From the NCBI RefSeq assembly GCF_963665355.1, contig NZ_OY762229.1, positions 4,464,001-4,528,000 of the forward strand: a stretch of DNA of 64,000 nucleotides, read 5' to 3'. Positions 26,483 to 53,311 of this stretch are shown here, piece after piece. Positions within the stretch are counted from its first letter, which is position 1; every line of letters begins with the position of its first letter. Below the pieces are notes generated by a model, which worked only from the letters and a program-made list of their open reading frames with translations, was not told the DNA's origin and made no database searches. This stretch comes from an uncultured Desulfobacter sp. Its GTDB lineage: Bacteria > Desulfobacterota > Desulfobacteria > Desulfobacterales > Desulfobacteraceae. A program made the translations under genes and the position numbers.

Positions 26483-26512
26483 TGTTTGTTGTGGTGCCCA
26501 GGAACAGAATTG
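26483..26512. repeat. Right attachment site overlapping tRNA-Phe 3' end
   Basis: Identical to 17271-17300 over 30 bases. Covers the T-arm 3' strand, acceptor 3' strand and CCA of tRNA-Phe plus nine downstream bases. The intact tRNA lies on this side, so the element supplied a replacement 3' end on integration. Confidence 0.85.
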
Positions 26513-26567
26513 AACTGCTGACACGGGGATTTTCAGTCCCCTGCTCTACCGACTGAGCTACCTGGGC
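26492..26567 (-). tRNA. tRNA-Phe (GAA)
   Basis: A 76-base tRNA on the minus strand. Acceptor arms GCCCAGG / CCTGGGC pair fully, the D-arm is AGCTCAGTCGGTAGAGC, the anticodon loop is CTGAAAAT with anticodon GAA, and the T-loop is GTTCAATTC. The CCA end is encoded (26494-26492). It lies downstream of rsmE on the same strand and serves as the integration target of the island. Confidence 0.97.
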
Positions 26568-46959: not shown

Positions 46960-47937
46960 TTAAAACATGGAATGGATCAGATGATCAATGGTCACATCTT
47001 TAATATGTCGTTCCAAATCAACGGCCTCTAATATATTTTTGATAGATTCGGAATCATGGCGGCAGCCCGTAAGCAGGACCTCTATATCGCTGACAGGATC
47101 AATGCCGAAAAAGTCTCCGAAAATGCGTATCCCCTGGATCACACCGTCTTTTACCTGCATTCGAATGTCAATGGTGCCGCCGGGGGTCCGGGTGGATTTT
47201 GAAAAGTTATATGCAGGAGAGTCTCCAAAATTCCAATGCCACTGCCGGTATCTTTCCCCGGCAAGGCGGTTAATCTGTTTGAGATCATCTTCATTGAACT
47301 GTGTCATAACGGCATGATGGGCGTTGTGCATATGCCGGCCAAGATCATCCATAAATTGTTCAACATTTGGCCTGTCCAATAGATAATTCCTGATATTGCA
47401 AACCCTGCTTCGGATGGACTGCACGGCCTTGTCCCTGTATTTCTCAGGGTCCACCAACAAGGATGTGGCCAACATTTCCAGGTTAACATCAAAAAGCAGG
47501 GTGCCGTGATGCAGTACCCGGTTCTTGTGAATATGCTGGGCATTTCCGGAAATTTTAAGCCCATCCACGATCAGATCATTGCGGCCGTCAAGTACGGCAG
47601 GGACTGACCGCCCATTGAGATAGTCAAGGATCGGACGGGTATAGGCGGAAAAGTCTATTCGTTTTGCCTGTCCCCCCACCTTGATGAACGTGAAATTGAT
47701 ATTGCCCAGGTCATGGTAGACAGCGCCGCCGCCTGTGATTCGTCGAACCACGTGAATATTGTGTTTTTCAACAAATTCAGGATTGATCTGGGATAATGTG
47801 TTCTGGTTTCTGCCGACAACAATGGTATTATGATTGCGCCAGAGCATGAAACAATCTTCACTTGCATTTTCCAGTAAATATTGTTCGGCGGCAAGATTAA
47901 AGGCCGGATCTGTTCCTGTATTTAAATAATAACGCAT
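46960..47937 (-). CDS. lplA: Lipoate-protein ligase A
   Basis: A 325-residue ligase that activates lipoate with ATP and attaches it to lysines of lipoyl domains (glycine cleavage H protein, 2-oxoacid dehydrogenases). Catalytic-domain motifs: LWRNHNTIVVGRNQNTLSQI, RRITGGGAVYHDLGNINFTF, and DLIVDGLKISGNAQH with the active-site lysine. A C-terminal accessory domain follows (FNEDDLKQIN onwards). It is the last gene of the aromatic biosynthesis operon; the start ATG is one base past the aroK stop region (shared base 47937). Confidence 0.93.
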   Translation of the reverse strand: MRYYLNTGTDPAFNLAAEQYLLENASEDCFMLWRNHNTIVVGRNQNTLSQINPEFVEKHNIHVVRRITGGGAVYHDLGNINFTFIKVGGQAKRIDFSAYTRPILDYLNGRSVPAVLDGRNDLIVDGLKISGNAQHIHKNRVLHHGTLLFDVNLEMLATSLLVDPEKYRDKAVQSIRSRVCNIRNYLLDRPNVEQFMDDLGRHMHNAHHAVMTQFNEDDLKQINRLAGERYRQWHWNFGDSPAYNFSKSTRTPGGTIDIRMQVKDGVIQGIRIFGDFFGIDPVSDIEVLLTGCRHDSESIKNILEAVDLERHIKDVTIDHLIHSMF

Positions 47938-48470
47938 CAGGTACTCCTGTATTGCGGGCCAAGTTCCTCTATGATTCGAAGTGCTGCAGCTTGAGAAGAA
48001 AATTTCTCTGTGTCGATGGATATGGCGGCAAGTGCCTGGTACAAGGGGTTTCTGATTTCAAGCATCTTCTGGGTTTCAAGGGAAAGGCTGTCCCGGGTAA
48101 GATCGGGTCTGCGCTCGGTGTTTTTTTTATCTTTGCGGATCCTGTCCGTCAGAACAGAGGCCGTGGCATAAAGATATACAACAACCCCGTTTTTTATTAA
48201 AAACTGCCTGTTTTCTTCGGCAAGAATGATACCGCCGCCCGTGGCCACCACAGGAGCGTTTTCAAGATCCAGATTCATCAGGGTTTCAGTCTCTTTTGCC
48301 CTGAAATAGGGCCAGCCATGCCGATCCACCATCTGGGCAATGGTTGTGCCCCAAGTGGATTCCAAAACCAGATCCGTATCCAGAAAATTTTTGTTCAAAA
48401 GCTTGGCCAGATACGTTCCTGTACTGGTTTTGCCCGTACACCGGTATCCGATAAGAAAAATGGGACGCAT
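47937..48470 (-). CDS. aroK: Shikimate kinase
   Basis: A 177-residue kinase that phosphorylates shikimate at the 3-OH. Walker A is GYRCTGKTSTGTYLAK; DTD-type substrate motif is FLDTDLVLE; the VATGGGIIL segment binds shikimate; the lid Arg is in RDSLSLETQK region (RRPDL). Start chosen at ATG 48470 with AAGGAAG nine bases ahead. Encoded downstream of aroA. Confidence 0.92.
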   Translation of the reverse strand: MRPIFLIGYRCTGKTSTGTYLAKLLNKNFLDTDLVLESTWGTTIAQMVDRHGWPYFRAKETETLMNLDLENAPVVATGGGIILAEENRQFLIKNGVVVYLYATASVLTDRIRKDKKNTERRPDLTRDSLSLETQKMLEIRNPLYQALAAISIDTEKFSSQAAALRIIEELGPQYRST

Positions 48471-48533
48471 GGAAACTTCCTTTTGACAGACCACTAAAGT
48501 TTAAAGAATATTAAAATTTACAAAATATCAAAT

Positions 48534-49790
48534 CTACAACACATCAAAGAGCTGCCAGAATGTCGGGAATGATTTTTCCACGCATCCCGGATTTTCAATT
48601 TCAATGCCGTCCACCATAAGGCCTGCAACGGCAAAGGCCATGGCAATGCGATGGTCGTTAAAGGTTTCAATGACGGCACCATGGGGTGTACCGCCGGTAA
48701 TCTCCATGAAATCAGAACCCTGCTCCGCTTTAATCCCCATCTTTGTAAGCTGGGAACATACCGCATCAATGCGATCGCACTCCTTGACCCGAAGATGGCC
48801 GATATTGGAGATCCGGGTGGTTCCTTTGGCAAACGCTGCGGTTACAGCCACGGCAGGCACCGCGTCCGGGGTATCGGACATATCCACATCCACGCCGTGC
48901 ATGGGATGGCCCTTCACTCGCAACACCCGTCCGTCATGATTTACTGTGCACCCCATCTTTTCAAAGATATAGGCCTGTTTCACATCGCCCTGCAAAGAGG
49001 TTGTACCGATATTGTCCACGCCGATATCCGCACCTGTGACCGCCCCTGCGGCCCAGAAATAGCCGGCATTGGAAAGATCCGGTTCCACGGCTCTGGTTCC
49101 GGATAAGTAGGTCTGGTCTCCGGGAACCTCATAACTGGTGTCGGATATCTGGAAGGCATTGACCCCGAACTGCTTCATGACATCCAGGGTAAGATCGATA
49201 TAGGGCTGGGACACGGGGGGGGCGGTCAGATCAATCACAAGCCCCTGGTCAAAAAACGCCCCGGCCATGAGAAGGGCCGACAGGTACTGGCTTGACCGGG
49301 AGCAGTCAAGAAGGGTGCGGCCCCCTGCCCTGTCTGTGCCCTGGATTACAACCGGCGGTGTGCCCGCATCGTTCTGGGAATAGGCACGGATACGGATACG
49401 GCTTAAAGCATCCAAAAGTTCTCCCATGGGGCGTTGGCACATCCGTTCATCCCCGGTCAGGGTATATGGTGTACTGCCAAGGGCTGCAATGCCAGCCAGA
49501 AGGCGCATGGACGTACCGGAATTTCCAAGGTGAATGGGATCTGGCCAGGGCTTTGGCCGCCCGCCGAAACCTGTGACCGACAGGGTGCCGTCTTGTCTGC
49601 TTTCAATTTTCGCCCCCATGCACCCCAGGGTCTTGCGGGTAAGTGAAATATCCTGGCTGTCCAGAACATTATAAATTTCAGAGGTACCGTCGGCCAGGGC
49701 TGCACAGATCAGCATCCGGTGCGAGATACTTTTGGAACCTGGAATTCTGACCACCTGGTCCTGGATACTTCGGGGAATGACCTGCTTCAT
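48534..49790 (-). CDS. aroA: 3-phosphoshikimate 1-carboxyvinyltransferase (EPSP synthase)
   Basis: A 418-residue enzyme joining shikimate-3-phosphate and PEP. Motifs: PGSKSISHRMLICAALADGT at the N terminus, HLGNSGTSMRLLAGIAAL (the PEP/glyphosate loop), and near the end RVKECDRIDAVCSQLTKMG and FNDHRIAMAFAVAGL. Complete and of normal length. In line with pheA-aroE-aroA-aroK. Confidence 0.96.
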   Translation of the reverse strand: MKQVIPRSIQDQVVRIPGSKSISHRMLICAALADGTSEIYNVLDSQDISLTRKTLGCMGAKIESRQDGTLSVTGFGGRPKPWPDPIHLGNSGTSMRLLAGIAALGSTPYTLTGDERMCQRPMGELLDALSRIRIRAYSQNDAGTPPVVIQGTDRAGGRTLLDCSRSSQYLSALLMAGAFFDQGLVIDLTAPPVSQPYIDLTLDVMKQFGVNAFQISDTSYEVPGDQTYLSGTRAVEPDLSNAGYFWAAGAVTGADIGVDNIGTTSLQGDVKQAYIFEKMGCTVNHDGRVLRVKGHPMHGVDVDMSDTPDAVPAVAVTAAFAKGTTRISNIGHLRVKECDRIDAVCSQLTKMGIKAEQGSDFMEITGGTPHGAVIETFNDHRIAMAFAVAGLMVDGIEIENPGCVEKSFPTFWQLFDVL

Positions 49791-49808: not shown

Positions 49809-50612
49809 TTACATATTGCTTGAAAGTATGCTCCGCATCAGATCCGTATCAGGGGTCACACCCGTCCACAATTCAAACTGGGCTGCGGCCTGGGCAATGA
49901 ACATGGACAGACCGTCAATGGTTGTGCACCTCTTTTGTTCCGCTGCTTCAAGCAGCCGGGTTTTCAACGGGGTATACACCACATCCATCACCACCATATC
50001 AGATGTCAATGCCCCGGCTGGAAAGCTAATCTGGTCCTCTTTGGGTGTCATGCCGATACTTGTGGTATTGATCAGCACATCAGCTTTAATACTTTCCATC
50101 TCCCGGGCAGGTATAAACAGACCATGAACCGCCTGGGCAAGGGAAAGGCCTTTTTGTTCCGTGCGATTGGTGATGATGATATTCGCCTTATGGGCGGCAA
50201 TGCCGTAGGCCACAGCCCGGGCTGCGCCGCCGGCACCTACGATGCAAACGGTTTTTCCGGCAATGCCGAAGGGAATGAGGGGGGCCACGGCGGCCAGACA
50301 ATCCGTATTATAACCTTTGAGAACACCATCGTCATTGACCAGGGTGTTTACGGCACCAATGGCCCGGGCCGTGGGATCGATCCAGTCGATATGTGCCATG
50401 ACGGATTCCTTGAAAGGAATGGTCACAGAAGCGCCCCGGATATCCAAGGTGCGCACGGCCTGCACCGCCTGGGCCGCATCCTGCACCTCGAAAGCGAGGT
50501 AAACGGCGTTTATGCCCTGTTTTTTCAACGCCGCATTATGAATTATGGGGCCTTTGGAGTGCCTGACAGGATTTCCGAATACACAAAAAACCCGGGTATC
50601 CGCATCAATCAT
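49809..50612 (-). CDS. aroE: Shikimate dehydrogenase
   Basis: A 267-residue NADP-dependent enzyme reducing 3-dehydroshikimate. Substrate motif CVFGNPVRHSKGPIIHNAAL, catalytic Lys and Asp in VTIPFKESV and GYNTDCLAAV, nucleotide-binding GAGGAARAVAYGI, NRT cofactor motif, and the ending GLSMFIAQAAAQFELWTG. Its start overlaps the pheA stop by four bases. Confidence 0.95.
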   Translation of the reverse strand: MIDADTRVFCVFGNPVRHSKGPIIHNAALKKQGINAVYLAFEVQDAAQAVQAVRTLDIRGASVTIPFKESVMAHIDWIDPTARAIGAVNTLVNDDGVLKGYNTDCLAAVAPLIPFGIAGKTVCIVGAGGAARAVAYGIAAHKANIIITNRTEQKGLSLAQAVHGLFIPAREMESIKADVLINTTSIGMTPKEDQISFPAGALTSDMVVMDVVYTPLKTRLLEAAEQKRCTTIDGLSMFIAQAAAQFELWTGVTPDTDLMRSILSSNM

Positions 50613-51727
50613 TGCAATATCTCCTTGTTTGAGGCAATCGGATATGATCCCAATACCTTTAAATACAGGGTCTGTCTTCGAATCTCTTCAATGGTTTGAA
50701 ATACTTTTTCATCCTGAATATGTCCTTCAATGTCCATGAAAAAATTATAGCTCCAGTTCTGACGGCGCGTGGGTCTGGATTCAAGCTTGACCATGTTCAG
50801 TCCGGACTGGTTCACAGGGGACAGAGCCCTGAAAAGAGCACCCGGAGCATGGGCCGTGGCAAACATAATAGATGTTTTATCATTCCCGGTTCTTTCCGGA
50901 GCAGCTCCTCCAATCACAAGAAACCGGGTAATGTTGCCTGCACGGTCCTCTATTTTTGATGCCACCGGCAGCAGAGTATAAAAATGAGCGGCCTTGACCG
51001 ATGCAATGGCTGCAATCCGTTCATCCTTTGAGGCCATCAGTGCAGCCTTTGATGTGGAGGTGGTATCCATGACTATGGCATCGGGCAAATGTTTCTTCAA
51101 CCAGTTTTTGCACTGGGCAATGGCCTGGGGGTGAGAATAAACGATTTTAACGTCTTTAAGTTCTCCTGAAATGGATAACAGATCATAGGAGATAGGCTCA
51201 TAATGCTCTGCTGTAACATGAATATCAAAATCGGCAAACAGGTCCAGGGTATAACTGACAGCCCCTTCAATGGAATTTTCGACGGGAACGATGCCGAAAT
51301 GAAGCTCTTTTCGCTTAATATTGTTAAAAATATCGAAAAAACCAGGCTGTTCCACAAACTCTCCGCAGTGATTGAAATAGTGGAGGGCTGCAATATGGGA
51401 ATTACTTGCAACGGGGCCGAGAAAACCTATGGTCACAGGCCGTTGAATTTCCCGGGTGGCCGTGATGATCACATTGAAAATGTACTGGATCAGACTTTCA
51501 TCGGCAGGGCCGGGATTGATCCGGGAAAGCCTTTCAATCACCATGCGTTCCCGGTTCCGGTCCAGAATCTGGCCGCCTTTCTGCTTTTTGATCTCACCTA
51601 CTTTTTTTCCGATTTCAAGGCGCTGGTTAATCAGTTCAAGGATGCGCTCGTCAATGCGGTCTATTTCCCCGCGAAGCGGAGACAGGGGCGTTTGGTTCTC
51701 TTTGTCCTTAATTTCCAGGTCTGTCAT
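50609..51727 (-). CDS. pheA: Bifunctional chorismate mutase/prephenate dehydratase (P-protein)
   Basis: A 372-residue enzyme of phenylalanine synthesis. An AroQ chorismate mutase domain (LRGEIDRIDERILELINQRL, then VGEIKKQKGGQILDRNRE) comes first, then a prephenate dehydratase domain (GFLGPVASNSHIAALHYF, VPVENSIEGAVSYTLDLF, GNITRFLVIG) and a C-terminal ACT domain with ESRPTRRQNWSYNFFMDIEG, the feedback-binding motif. The usual GPEGTFS-type segment is altered to GPVASNS. Start taken at ATG 51727 with GAAGGGA ahead. Probably regulated by the attenuator directly upstream and by Phe feedback. Confidence 0.93.
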   Translation of the reverse strand: MTDLEIKDKENQTPLSPLRGEIDRIDERILELINQRLEIGKKVGEIKKQKGGQILDRNRERMVIERLSRINPGPADESLIQYIFNVIITATREIQRPVTIGFLGPVASNSHIAALHYFNHCGEFVEQPGFFDIFNNIKRKELHFGIVPVENSIEGAVSYTLDLFADFDIHVTAEHYEPISYDLLSISGELKDVKIVYSHPQAIAQCKNWLKKHLPDAIVMDTTSTSKAALMASKDERIAAIASVKAAHFYTLLPVASKIEDRAGNITRFLVIGGAAPERTGNDKTSIMFATAHAPGALFRALSPVNQSGLNMVKLESRPTRRQNWSYNFFMDIEGHIQDEKVFQTIEEIRRQTLYLKVLGSYPIASNKEILQ

Positions 51728-51762: not shown

Positions 51763-51799
51763 AAAAAAACCGCCTCAGGCCTTTGCCTGCTGCGGTTTT
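51763..51799 (-). terminator. Intrinsic terminator in the pheA leader
   Basis: On the minus strand an 8-bp outer stem (51792-51799 with 51766-51773) and a 5-bp inner stem (51785-51789 with 51776-51780, loop of four) is followed by seven T residues (A run 51763-51769 on plus). It lies 36 bases before the pheA start and after a leader peptide, as expected for an attenuator. Confidence 0.8.
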
Positions 51800-51829
51800 T
51801 AGTGATTTCAGTTTAATTTATGGGAAAAA

Positions 51830-51907
51830 TCAGTAGTCCACAGGCAGGCTGTCCTTGTTATAAAATCGAGTGCTAAAATAAAAATTTTTGTTGAAGCTAA
51901 AAGTCAT
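51830..51907 (-). CDS. pheL: Phe/Tyr-rich leader peptide of the pheA operon
   Basis: A 25-codon frame from ATG at 51907-51905 to TGA at 51832-51830. It contains five Phe and three Tyr, concentrated in the first sixteen residues (begins MTFSFNKNFYFSTRFY). An AGGGA site lies eleven bases upstream. Position between promoter and terminator, in front of a phenylalanine gene, is that of an attenuation leader peptide. It is too short for usual gene finding. The 3' half of the frame includes a sequence that can pair with the terminator stem. Confidence 0.7.
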   Translation of the reverse strand: MTFSFNKNFYFSTRFYNKDSLPVDY

Positions 51908-51938
51908 TGAACTATTTTTCCCTATAATTTTTTAGAAC

Positions 51939-51965
51939 CTTATACGTCGAATCTGTTTCTGTCAA
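51939..51965 (-). promoter_or_regulatory. Candidate promoter of pheA operon
   Basis: On the minus strand a perfect -35 TTGACA (51965-51960) and -10 TATAAG (51944-51939) are spaced by 15 bases, a little short of optimum. Transcription would start near 51932, about 25 bases before the leader-peptide ATG. Confidence 0.5.
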
Positions 51966-52054: not shown

Positions 52055-53311
52055 TCATGGTTCGTCAGCCGGTTTAATAATGAAAGACTGAATCCGGTTG
52101 CCGTCCATATCCTTTACCGTAAAAACCCAGTTGTTCATATGAATGGACTCCCCGGGGTTGGGAATACGCTCCACAAGTTCCAGGAAGAAACCCGATACCG
52201 TATCGTAGTTTGAAGATTCAGGAATGCCTAAGTTCAGCTCTTTGTTGAGATGATATATGTCTGTTTTACCGGCCACCAGCCACTTGTTACCTTTGATCTG
52301 GACAATATCCGGCGTATTTTTATCTGACTCGTCGGCAATTTCTCCAAAAATTTCTTCAACCACATCCTCAAGGGTTACGATGCCGGAAACGCCGCCATAC
52401 TCATCAACCACGACGGCCATATGACTTTTTTTCGCCTTAAAGGCTTTAAGCAGTGAATCCAGTTTCTTCGATTCCGGTATGAAATAGGGTTTCTTCATCA
52501 TCGATTTAATATCAAGGTTGTCCGGGGATGCTTCGGAACAGTCCTTTTCCAGGTATCTTGAAAAAAGATCCTTAATATGAAGAATTCCCACAACATTATC
52601 TATGGTATCTTCAATCACCGGAATGCGTGAAAAGCCAGTCTTTAGAACCGTTGGAATATCCAACCCCTCGGCTGCATCCACCACAAACATGTCGGCCCTG
52701 GGCGTCATTATCTCAGAACAGCAGGTGTCATCAAACTCAAAGATGTTGGTGATGTATTCTTTTTCTTCCTCCTTGATCTCGCCTTCACCTTCAACCACCT
52801 CCACCATGGTCATCAGTTCATCCTCGGTGACAGCTTCCTGGGCATTGTCTATGGTACCGTGCAGTTTGGGGATGAAATTGAGGACAAAGATCAAAGGCCA
52901 CAAAAGTTTTGACAGCCAGTAAAGGGGGTATATCACAGCCCTTGAGACCACCACATTGTTGTGGTTGGCAAAGGATTTAGGAAAAATCTCTCCAAAAACA
53001 AGGACCAGAAGCGTCATGATACCGGTGGCAATGCCCACGGCATTGGACTGAAAATGGGCAATGGCAAGGGAAGTGGCAAGGGCTGATGCACCGATGTTGA
53101 CCAGGTTGTTACCAATGAGAATAGTGGTTAAAAGGGTATGGGAGTTTTCTTTCATTTCAAGAATCAGCCGGCCGGAGTTTGACCCGTCCTTGGCAATATG
53201 CAGGGCTTTGACTTTGGAAATGGAGAAAAGCGCTGTTTCAGACATTGAAAAAAAACCTGAAAGAAGAAGGCAGAAACATAACAGGGTCAGTTCGAAACTC
53301 ATAAACGACAA
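52055..53311 (-). CDS. CNNM/CorC-type membrane protein with CBS pair (hemolysin family)
   Basis: A 418-residue protein: N-terminal DUF21/CNNM membrane domain (GFFSMSETALFSISKVKALH and HTLLTTILIGNNLVNIGASA), two CBS domains (IMTPRADMFVVDA, GFSRIPVIEDTIDNVVGILH, and HMAVVVDEYGGVSGIVTLED) and a C-terminal CorC_HlyC domain. Family members are linked to Mg2+/Co2+ or Na+/Mg2+ exchange. Despite old annotation as hemolysin there is no reason to suppose toxin activity. Divides the aromatic operon from the envelope operon, all on the minus strand. Confidence 0.92.
   Translation of the reverse strand: MSFMSFELTLLCFCLLLSGFFSMSETALFSISKVKALHIAKDGSNSGRLILEMKENSHTLLTTILIGNNLVNIGASALATSLAIAHFQSNAVGIATGIMTLLVLVFGEIFPKSFANHNNVVVSRAVIYPLYWLSKLLWPLIFVLNFIPKLHGTIDNAQEAVTEDELMTMVEVVEGEGEIKEEEKEYITNIFEFDDTCCSEIMTPRADMFVVDAAEGLDIPTVLKTGFSRIPVIEDTIDNVVGILHIKDLFSRYLEKDCSEASPDNLDIKSMMKKPYFIPESKKLDSLLKAFKAKKSHMAVVVDEYGGVSGIVTLEDVVEEIFGEIADESDKNTPDIVQIKGNKWLVAGKTDIYHLNKELNLGIPESSNYDTVSGFFLELVERIPNPGESIHMNNWVFTVKDMDGNRIQSFIIKPADEP

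Follow-up and report, generated by a model that had tools for sequence, protein, structure and literature searches.

A predicted phenylalanine attenuator before pheA in Desulfobacter and related putative leaders of aromatic amino acid genes in the Desulfobacterales

Ribosome-mediated attenuation has been known since the enteric trp, his, and pheA systems. In the enteric pheL-pheA arrangement, a Phe-rich leader peptide is combined with an alternative antiterminator and an intrinsic terminator before pheA. The available part of PMC1183508 lists pheA of E. coli and S. typhimurium among the attenuation-controlled operons. The Desulfobacter locus analyzed here shares with the enteric one a Phe-rich leader and the alternative antiterminator and intrinsic terminator before pheA, but it belongs to another phylum, its operon runs on into aroE-aroA-aroK, its leader mixes in Tyr codons, and its putative protector arm lies at the start site of the leader.

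Beyond the enteric bacteria, a predicted Phe attenuator before pheA, filed with the Rfam Trp_leader family, is described for Shewanella in the available part of PMC2659441. The Desulfobacter leader is alike in being a candidate Phe attenuator in such a place; however, Shewanella belongs to the Gammaproteobacteria and its leader to Trp_leader, whereas the Desulfobacter leader reaches no Rfam gathering score. The earlier note on this DNA had seen here the pheL logic outside the Enterobacteria; the design is supported by our analysis, but a location of that kind is not new, given the Shewanella precedent (PMC2659441, in its available part). The uORFC-13-1 motif, known from 24 sequences of Acholeplasma and unknown organisms only and carrying at least one Phe codon according to the available part of PMC8632094, likewise joins a short ORF with Phe codons to a terminator before a DAHP synthase gene (Acholeplasma aroF), but the Desulfobacterota leaders are Phe/Tyr-rich, about 25 codons long, and from a different phylum. 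In Actinobacteria, attenuators of the classical type were predicted from genome comparison, as is done here, and the available sections of that study describe the Phe and Tyr operons as having no conserved upstream RNA structure (PMC1262725), whereas the Desulfobacterota do show putative Phe/Tyr leaders. The delta-proteobacteria are treated for leader-to-gene distances only in the accessible text of PMC4833913. Among the titles and abstracts covered by our literature search, none deals with attenuators of Desulfobacterota, and the likeliest surveys (Vitreschak 2004, Lopatovskaya 2010) fell outside its coverage. Therefore, what is new is new as far as that search goes: the phylum, the lack of an Rfam match, the putative Tyr-sensing leaders, and the predicted control of the alternative aromatic pathway. 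The mechanism, classical ribosome-mediated attenuation, is known, and the family is matched by no Rfam model here.

The window, that is, the whole 64,000-nucleotide stretch analyzed, covers positions 4464001-4528000 of contig C2 of genome G000. The gene order on its minus strand is a CorC-like gene (52055-53311), an intergenic region, pheA (50609..51727, ATG at 51727; chorismate mutase/prephenate dehydratase with an ACT domain), aroE (49809..50612; shikimate dehydrogenase, overlapping the end of pheA), aroA (48534..49790; 3-phosphoshikimate 1-carboxyvinyltransferase), an aroK/aroL-type shikimate kinase gene (47937..48494), and a lipoate-ligase-like gene. The nearest named relatives of the pheA protein are those of Desulfobacter vibrioformis, D. 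latus, and D. postgatei bins, with 82-87% identity, which points to that genus as the source of the window. The Rfam scan of the whole window gave nothing at or above gathering at the pheA leader and no match to an amino-acid leader or T-box family; near-matches to SurA, RsaJ, and the trpB motif were dismissed, their scores being far below gathering. The sole match above gathering in the window is a minus-strand tRNA gene at 26495-26567.

All leader elements lie on the minus strand. The promoter that the earlier note had placed before pheA was found at 51939..51965 (TTGACA at 51965-51960, a spacer of 15, TATAAG at 51944-51939), and re-reading of the minus strand confirmed the leader ORF of 25 sense codons with five Phe and three Tyr (MTFSFNKNFYFSTRFYNKDSLPVDY; 51830..51907, ATG at 51907, stop TGA at 51832-51830). 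The intrinsic terminator claimed in the same place is also present between this ORF and pheA (51763..51795; hairpin 51795-51770, U-tract 51769-51763). As for the antiterminator proposed from GCCTGC (51849-51844) and GCAGGC (51790-51785), both motifs stand at these positions and their pairing holds, but its length does not, as the helix extends from 6 bp to 11 bp with one bulge (51849-51838 with 51795-51785). Its 5' arm, segment 2 (GCCUGCCUGUGG; 51838..51849), lies within the end of the leader ORF, and its other arm, segment 3 (CCGCAGCAGGC; 51785..51795), is common to the antiterminator (2:3) and the terminator (3:4). Besides these two hairpins, a third, protector helix (1:2) is predicted, which had not been noticed before: segment 1 (GGGAAAAAUAGUUCA; 51908..51922), immediately 5' of the leader start codon, pairs with 51840-51822 in the lowest-energy fold. 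The Shine-Dalgarno sequence of the leader is weak by eye. A consensus scanner, whose spacer range is 16-18 against the 15 found here, listed neither the promoter nor the terminator, yet both are kept in relatives.

This set, namely an own promoter, a short Phe-rich leader ORF, an intrinsic terminator before the first gene, and an antiterminator that is exclusive with the terminator and whose 5' arm falls in the last part of the leader ORF, is that of a classical attenuator. We put at about 0.9 the probability that transcription of pheA-aroE-aroA-aroK is controlled here by classical ribosome-mediated attenuation, in which charged Phe-tRNA is sensed and readthrough into the operon is set accordingly; Tyr probably contributes to the sensing as well. 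When Phe is short, the ribosome would stall at Phe codons 3-15 and leave segment 2 free, and free segment 2 would pair with segment 3 once that is transcribed, so that the terminator is blocked and transcription continues into the operon. With ample Phe, the ribosome would move on to the stop UGA and cover segment 2, 3:4 would pair, and transcription would terminate. Should segment 2 be released, the putative protector 1:2 would tip the balance towards termination; its 5' arm in Desulfobacter is located where the leader itself starts.

The proposed switch was modelled with the leader masked to 11 nt past the first base of the A-site codon. For a transcript ending at segment 3, the probability of 2:3 was 1.00 with a stall at any Phe or Tyr codon from 3 to 16 and 0.00 with the ribosome at codon 25 or the stop. 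It was also 1.00 with no ribosome, and since the ribosome-free transcript up to segment 3 thus folds into 2:3, the protector helix of the window may be weak. In the full-length leader at equilibrium, the terminator was preferred for most ribosome positions (3:4 mean pairing 0.64-0.80), with 3:4 pairing of 0.64 for a stall at codon 15 and of 0.44 vs 0.45 at codon 16. As equilibrium favours the terminator, we infer that antitermination must be kinetic and decided during transcription, as in known attenuators.

Chance alone might be thought to yield such an arrangement, with the terminator merely ending the transcript of the CorC-like gene and the U-rich stretch giving a Phe-rich ORF by base composition. 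The CorC-like gene is indeed on the same strand as pheA, and when the 327-base intergenic stretch was dinucleotide-shuffled 5000 times, the Phe-rich ORF alone appeared in 4.1%; however, a comparable terminator appeared in 0.02% and the two together in 0/5000. The fold of the 169-nt leader had z = -2.95. Moreover, the promoter TTGAC[ATC]-N15-TATA, which separates the CorC-like gene from the leader, is kept in 31/39 leaders vs 0.1% of shuffles, the antiterminator pairing is maintained across clades, and the identical design stands before DAHP synthase elsewhere in the genome. We therefore regard this explanation as highly improbable and keep to the attenuator.

The earlier note had named the lack of a Phe-rich ORF in relatives as the finding that would speak against it, and this check did not go against the attenuator. 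Of the family's 86 genomes, the 53 in which pheA was matched at E <= 1e-60 had their upstream regions read; the Phe-rich leader lies directly before pheA in 39 of these 53. In one genome (G017), it is intact and displaced upstream by about 1.5 kb; in three (G025, G087, and G092), it lies about 2 kb upstream and precedes a 2-amino-3,7-dideoxy-heptulosonate synthase gene. The leader was not found in seven of the 53 (G019, G068, G071, G072, G077, G083, and G089), and three loci were uninformative owing to contig ends or fragments (G069, G082, and G108). In G017, an IscB-like gene with RRXRR and HNH domains (L334:556-1797, plus strand) lies between the leader match and pheA. In L112 (G089) and L006, the terminator is kept before pheA while the leader and the -10 region are gone, as if deleted.

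The 39 leaders that were aligned come from 38 family genomes and one genome of another family (L028), G029 being counted but kept outside the alignments. Each contains 4 to 8 Phe, which is not independent evidence by itself, since the search for leaders asked for ORFs containing several Phe; their Phe codons are 172 UUU and 29 UUC. The mean F+Y per leader is 7.6 in the ORF frame vs 3.2 and 4.1 in the other frames (the ORFs having been picked by Phe content), and the +1 and +2 frames are free of stops over the leader in 8/39 and 3/39, respectively. Segment 2, CUGUGG or nearly so, is kept at the ORF end in these leaders and is followed by 8 further bases of the ORF in 20/39 (peptide ends like LPVDY and LPVVR) and by 3 in 19/39 (peptide ends like CLW). 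As segment 2 is thus read in two frames, the RNA and the Phe codons are conserved separately: the peptide end follows the RNA, and the Phe/Tyr codons stay.

These data bear on two further explanations. An RNA element of the riboswitch or T-box type, binding a metabolite, tRNA, or protein directly and leaving the ORF incidental, would agree with the conserved RNA segments and the alternative helices. However, no Rfam family reaches gathering in the window leader or in the leaders of 20 relatives, the open Phe-rich frame is kept with its start and stop despite the frame shift of segment 2, and the codon content varies with the controlled gene, all of which leaves direct binding with very little probability. 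The ORF could instead encode a functional small peptide or serve translation coupling to pheA, with the terminator separate and unregulated, and the leader peptide is in fact nearly constant within Desulfobacter. Between genera, however, its length (18-27 aa), its ends (LPVDY, CLW, LPVVR), and the order of its residues differ while the Phe/Tyr content stays, and the terminator stands between the ORF and pheA; such a role thus seems most unlikely, and the attenuator remains the preferred reading.

The covariation of the helices, a check proposed earlier, was measured in alignment A2 of 25 non-Desulfobacter pheA leaders, and both the terminator and the antiterminator arms co-vary in relatives. 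Paired cells amounted to 72.5% for 1:2, 88.4% for 3:4, 80.8% for these two combined, and 89.1% for 2:3, with two-sided changes in 7/10, 3/11, 10/21, and 2/10 pairs, respectively. For 1:2 and 3:4 combined, neither the paired percentage nor the covariation score was reached by shuffles (0/500 each), and the two-sided-change count beat them weakly (27/500). For 2:3, the shuffles reached the paired percentage in 0/500 and the covariation score in 4/500, but the two-sided-change count was no better than shuffles (155/500). Sliding the 2:3 partner by -3 columns lowered the paired cells to 57.5% and left the covariation score unchanged at 0.110.

The partners were also swapped between species. For 2:3, the mean energies were -15.8 kcal/mol with the own partner and -13.5 kcal/mol with a swapped one (28 sequences, 0/2000 swaps as good), and for 1:2 they were -11.9 and -10.5 kcal/mol (25 sequences; 0/2000 with segment 1 limited to -10..+40, 23/2000 without this limit on its position). 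With one representative per clade, swaps were as good in 0/10000 for 2:3 and for 3:4 each (17 representatives) and in 30/10000 for 1:2 (16 representatives). The arms of the antiterminator and the terminator thus pair better within species than between species, with shuffles and swaps removing the relatedness of the sequences only partly. The protector helix 1:2 is supported by covariation and swaps in the non-Desulfobacter leaders. In Desulfobacter, segment 1 lies outside the ORF, and the bases 5' of the start codon pair around or after the ORF end; the energy of this displaced helix in 14 Desulfobacter leaders is -12.1 to -17.7 kcal/mol. A helix as strong occurred in 5/1000 shuffles for the window and in 2 to 20 of 1000 shuffles for 10 of the 14 leaders; in the other four (L003, L011, L088, and L091), shuffles reached it often (79 to 249/1000). 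Three of these four have an ACACAGG/CCUGUG pairing of -14 to -16 kcal/mol, a value without a shuffle control.

The design recurs before other genes. Model R1, built solely from 25 pheA leaders, matched 80 of the 86 family genomes, with at least two matches in 39/86 and in 18/19 within the genus, and 22/297 genomes of the phylum sample (E <= 0.01). The second copy in G000 (C2:237420-237564; L203:1514-1645, plus strand) has the leader MTTRNTGKFYFYFRYYAYTGLPVLR and a terminator, followed by a DAHP synthase gene of the AroFGH type, and its lowest-energy fold is the textbook 1:2 plus 3:4. The 126 R1 rows of the family comprise 40 pheA leaders and 86 others, of which 60 were fetched, giving 61 with the G000 copy. 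DAHP synthase lies downstream of 55 of these 61 (over 50% identity, E <= 1e-10), and each of the 55 has an ORF with F+Y >= 5 when the ORF richest in F+Y is taken. Among the other six, L223 has a gene cut by the contig end whose start resembles DAHP synthase, L254 (G025) lies before tyrS and has 7 Tyr but no Phe, L260 has an FFFFF leader before the other type of DAHP synthase, and L265 precedes, by eye, the alternative-pathway synthase; the matches L261 and L262 (G016 and G107) were set aside as having a chance look. The mean content was 5.15 F and 2.49 Y in pheA leaders and 3.95 F and 5.16 Y in DAHP synthase leaders, and the pheA leader was the more Phe-biased in 31/32 genomes with both. As R1 was trained on U-rich Phe leaders, its matches are to some extent bound to be rich in F/Y; this does not apply to which gene lies downstream.

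Leaders for other amino acids were also observed. Those of tyrS and trpE in G000 were found via the gene and not via R1. The tyrS leader (L266, about 120-220 bases upstream; C2:1362200) reads AYYYCGYY, with a terminator-like hairpin after it; it sits before one of the two tyrS genes only. Tyr-rich leaders (YYYCGYY or YYYYYRYY) with a terminator precede tyrS in L254 (G025) and L335 (G006) as well. Of 30 tyrS loci examined, the ten best were counted and all carry a Tyr leader (L274-L283, L278 via a separate reading); most lower-ranked loci were uninformative, the longest open frame running to the locus edge, and a few lacked a Tyr leader (e.g., L284, L287, and L292). The trpE leader of G000, MKTSATNQKQILWHWHSWPIWQWLLHRSSKMI, is followed by a terminator-like hairpin (L269, Trp-rich stretch LWHWHSWPIWQW plus terminator about 118-217 bases upstream of trpE, C2:4844226). 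Among trpE relatives, 24/29 loci scanned have an ORF with at least three Trp, two of them (L308 and L326) with no terminator in the scan. No matching leader was found for the second tyrS, trpS, pheS, or hisG of G000. At the third R1 match in G000 (E 0.0017), a Val-rich leader (VVMSVVGVVVSV) and a terminator stand before ilvB (L205:1523-1651, plus strand, within C2:93042-93255). In that locus (L205:1770-3214, plus strand), the acetolactate synthase frame stops at 2519, and from about 2492 similar sequence continues in a different frame; this change of frame is either real or due to the assembly. In L204 (G038), an Ile/Leu/Val-rich leader stands before ilvD.

A second model, R2, was trained on 24 leaders. 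Most of these precede DAHP synthase or the alternative-pathway synthase; one tyrS leader and L194, which stands before another gene, were also included. It matched 150/194 genomes of the order (111/123 of those of good quality) and 94/297 genomes of the phylum sample (both at E <= 0.001), and the putative leader family is thus spread across the order. We scanned 55 R2 loci (L336-L390, without L200; some overlap the training loci) with five gene queries. Going downstream, the first gene recognised was that of the alternative-pathway synthase at 24 loci, that of DAHP synthase I-alpha at 17, that of I-beta at 3, and pheA at 1; at 10 loci, none of the five was found downstream. An ORF with F+Y+W >= 5 was present in 54 of the 55, the picks in L351, L352, and L367 probably not being leaders. 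Phe/Tyr leaders precede the 2-amino-3,7-dideoxy-heptulosonate synthase gene in L181, L183, L184, L187, L336, L337, and others, in some genomes about 2 kb before pheA.

The view that pheA of other families has no leader proved wrong. In 15 genomes of other families with a pheA match at E <= 1e-103, R2 matched upstream on the same contig in 12, about 2 kb before pheA in 11 and directly before it in one (G054); no such match was found in G052, G053, and G055. The first gene after the leader, read in four of them, was 2-amino-3,7-dideoxy-heptulosonate synthase in G041, G050, and G058 and DAHP synthase in G045. Aromatic-rich leaders were also seen before a gene matching an acetate--CoA ligase alpha model below the cut-off (L194, G204), with a similar leader in L349 (G329), and before a LivK-type binding protein look-alike by eye, with no NCBIfam match (L193, G138).

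Across these loci, the codons of the putative leaders track the gene presumably controlled: Phe for pheA, Phe/Tyr for DAHP synthase, Tyr for tyrS, Trp for trpE, and Val for ilvB. Leader conservation, co-varying arms, and this match of codons to genes all support the reading of the pheA upstream region as a probable Phe attenuator.

Attenuators of amino-acid genes may have arisen in Gammaproteobacteria with very few transfers, according to the available part of PMC3766115, in which the four then-Rfam leader models were used; a coherent Desulfobacterota set without an Rfam match suggests that this picture reflects the models searched. The set predicts that the alternative aromatic pathway is controlled in this way and that there is an attenuator sensing Tyr, and the leaders offer a natural series in which the sensor codons change on similar RNA frames. 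We lean towards the view that much of the aromatic amino-acid network of the Desulfobacterales is governed by attenuation through the ribosome on a common RNA scaffold retuned by codon swaps, with Phe for pheA, Phe/Tyr for DAHP synthase and for the operon of 2-amino-3,7-dideoxy-heptulosonate synthase, Tyr codons serving tyrS, and Trp codons preceding trpE. If this is true, the resulting regulatory family would match the enteric one in breadth, would be of non-enteric origin, and would also comprise attenuators that sense tyrosine.
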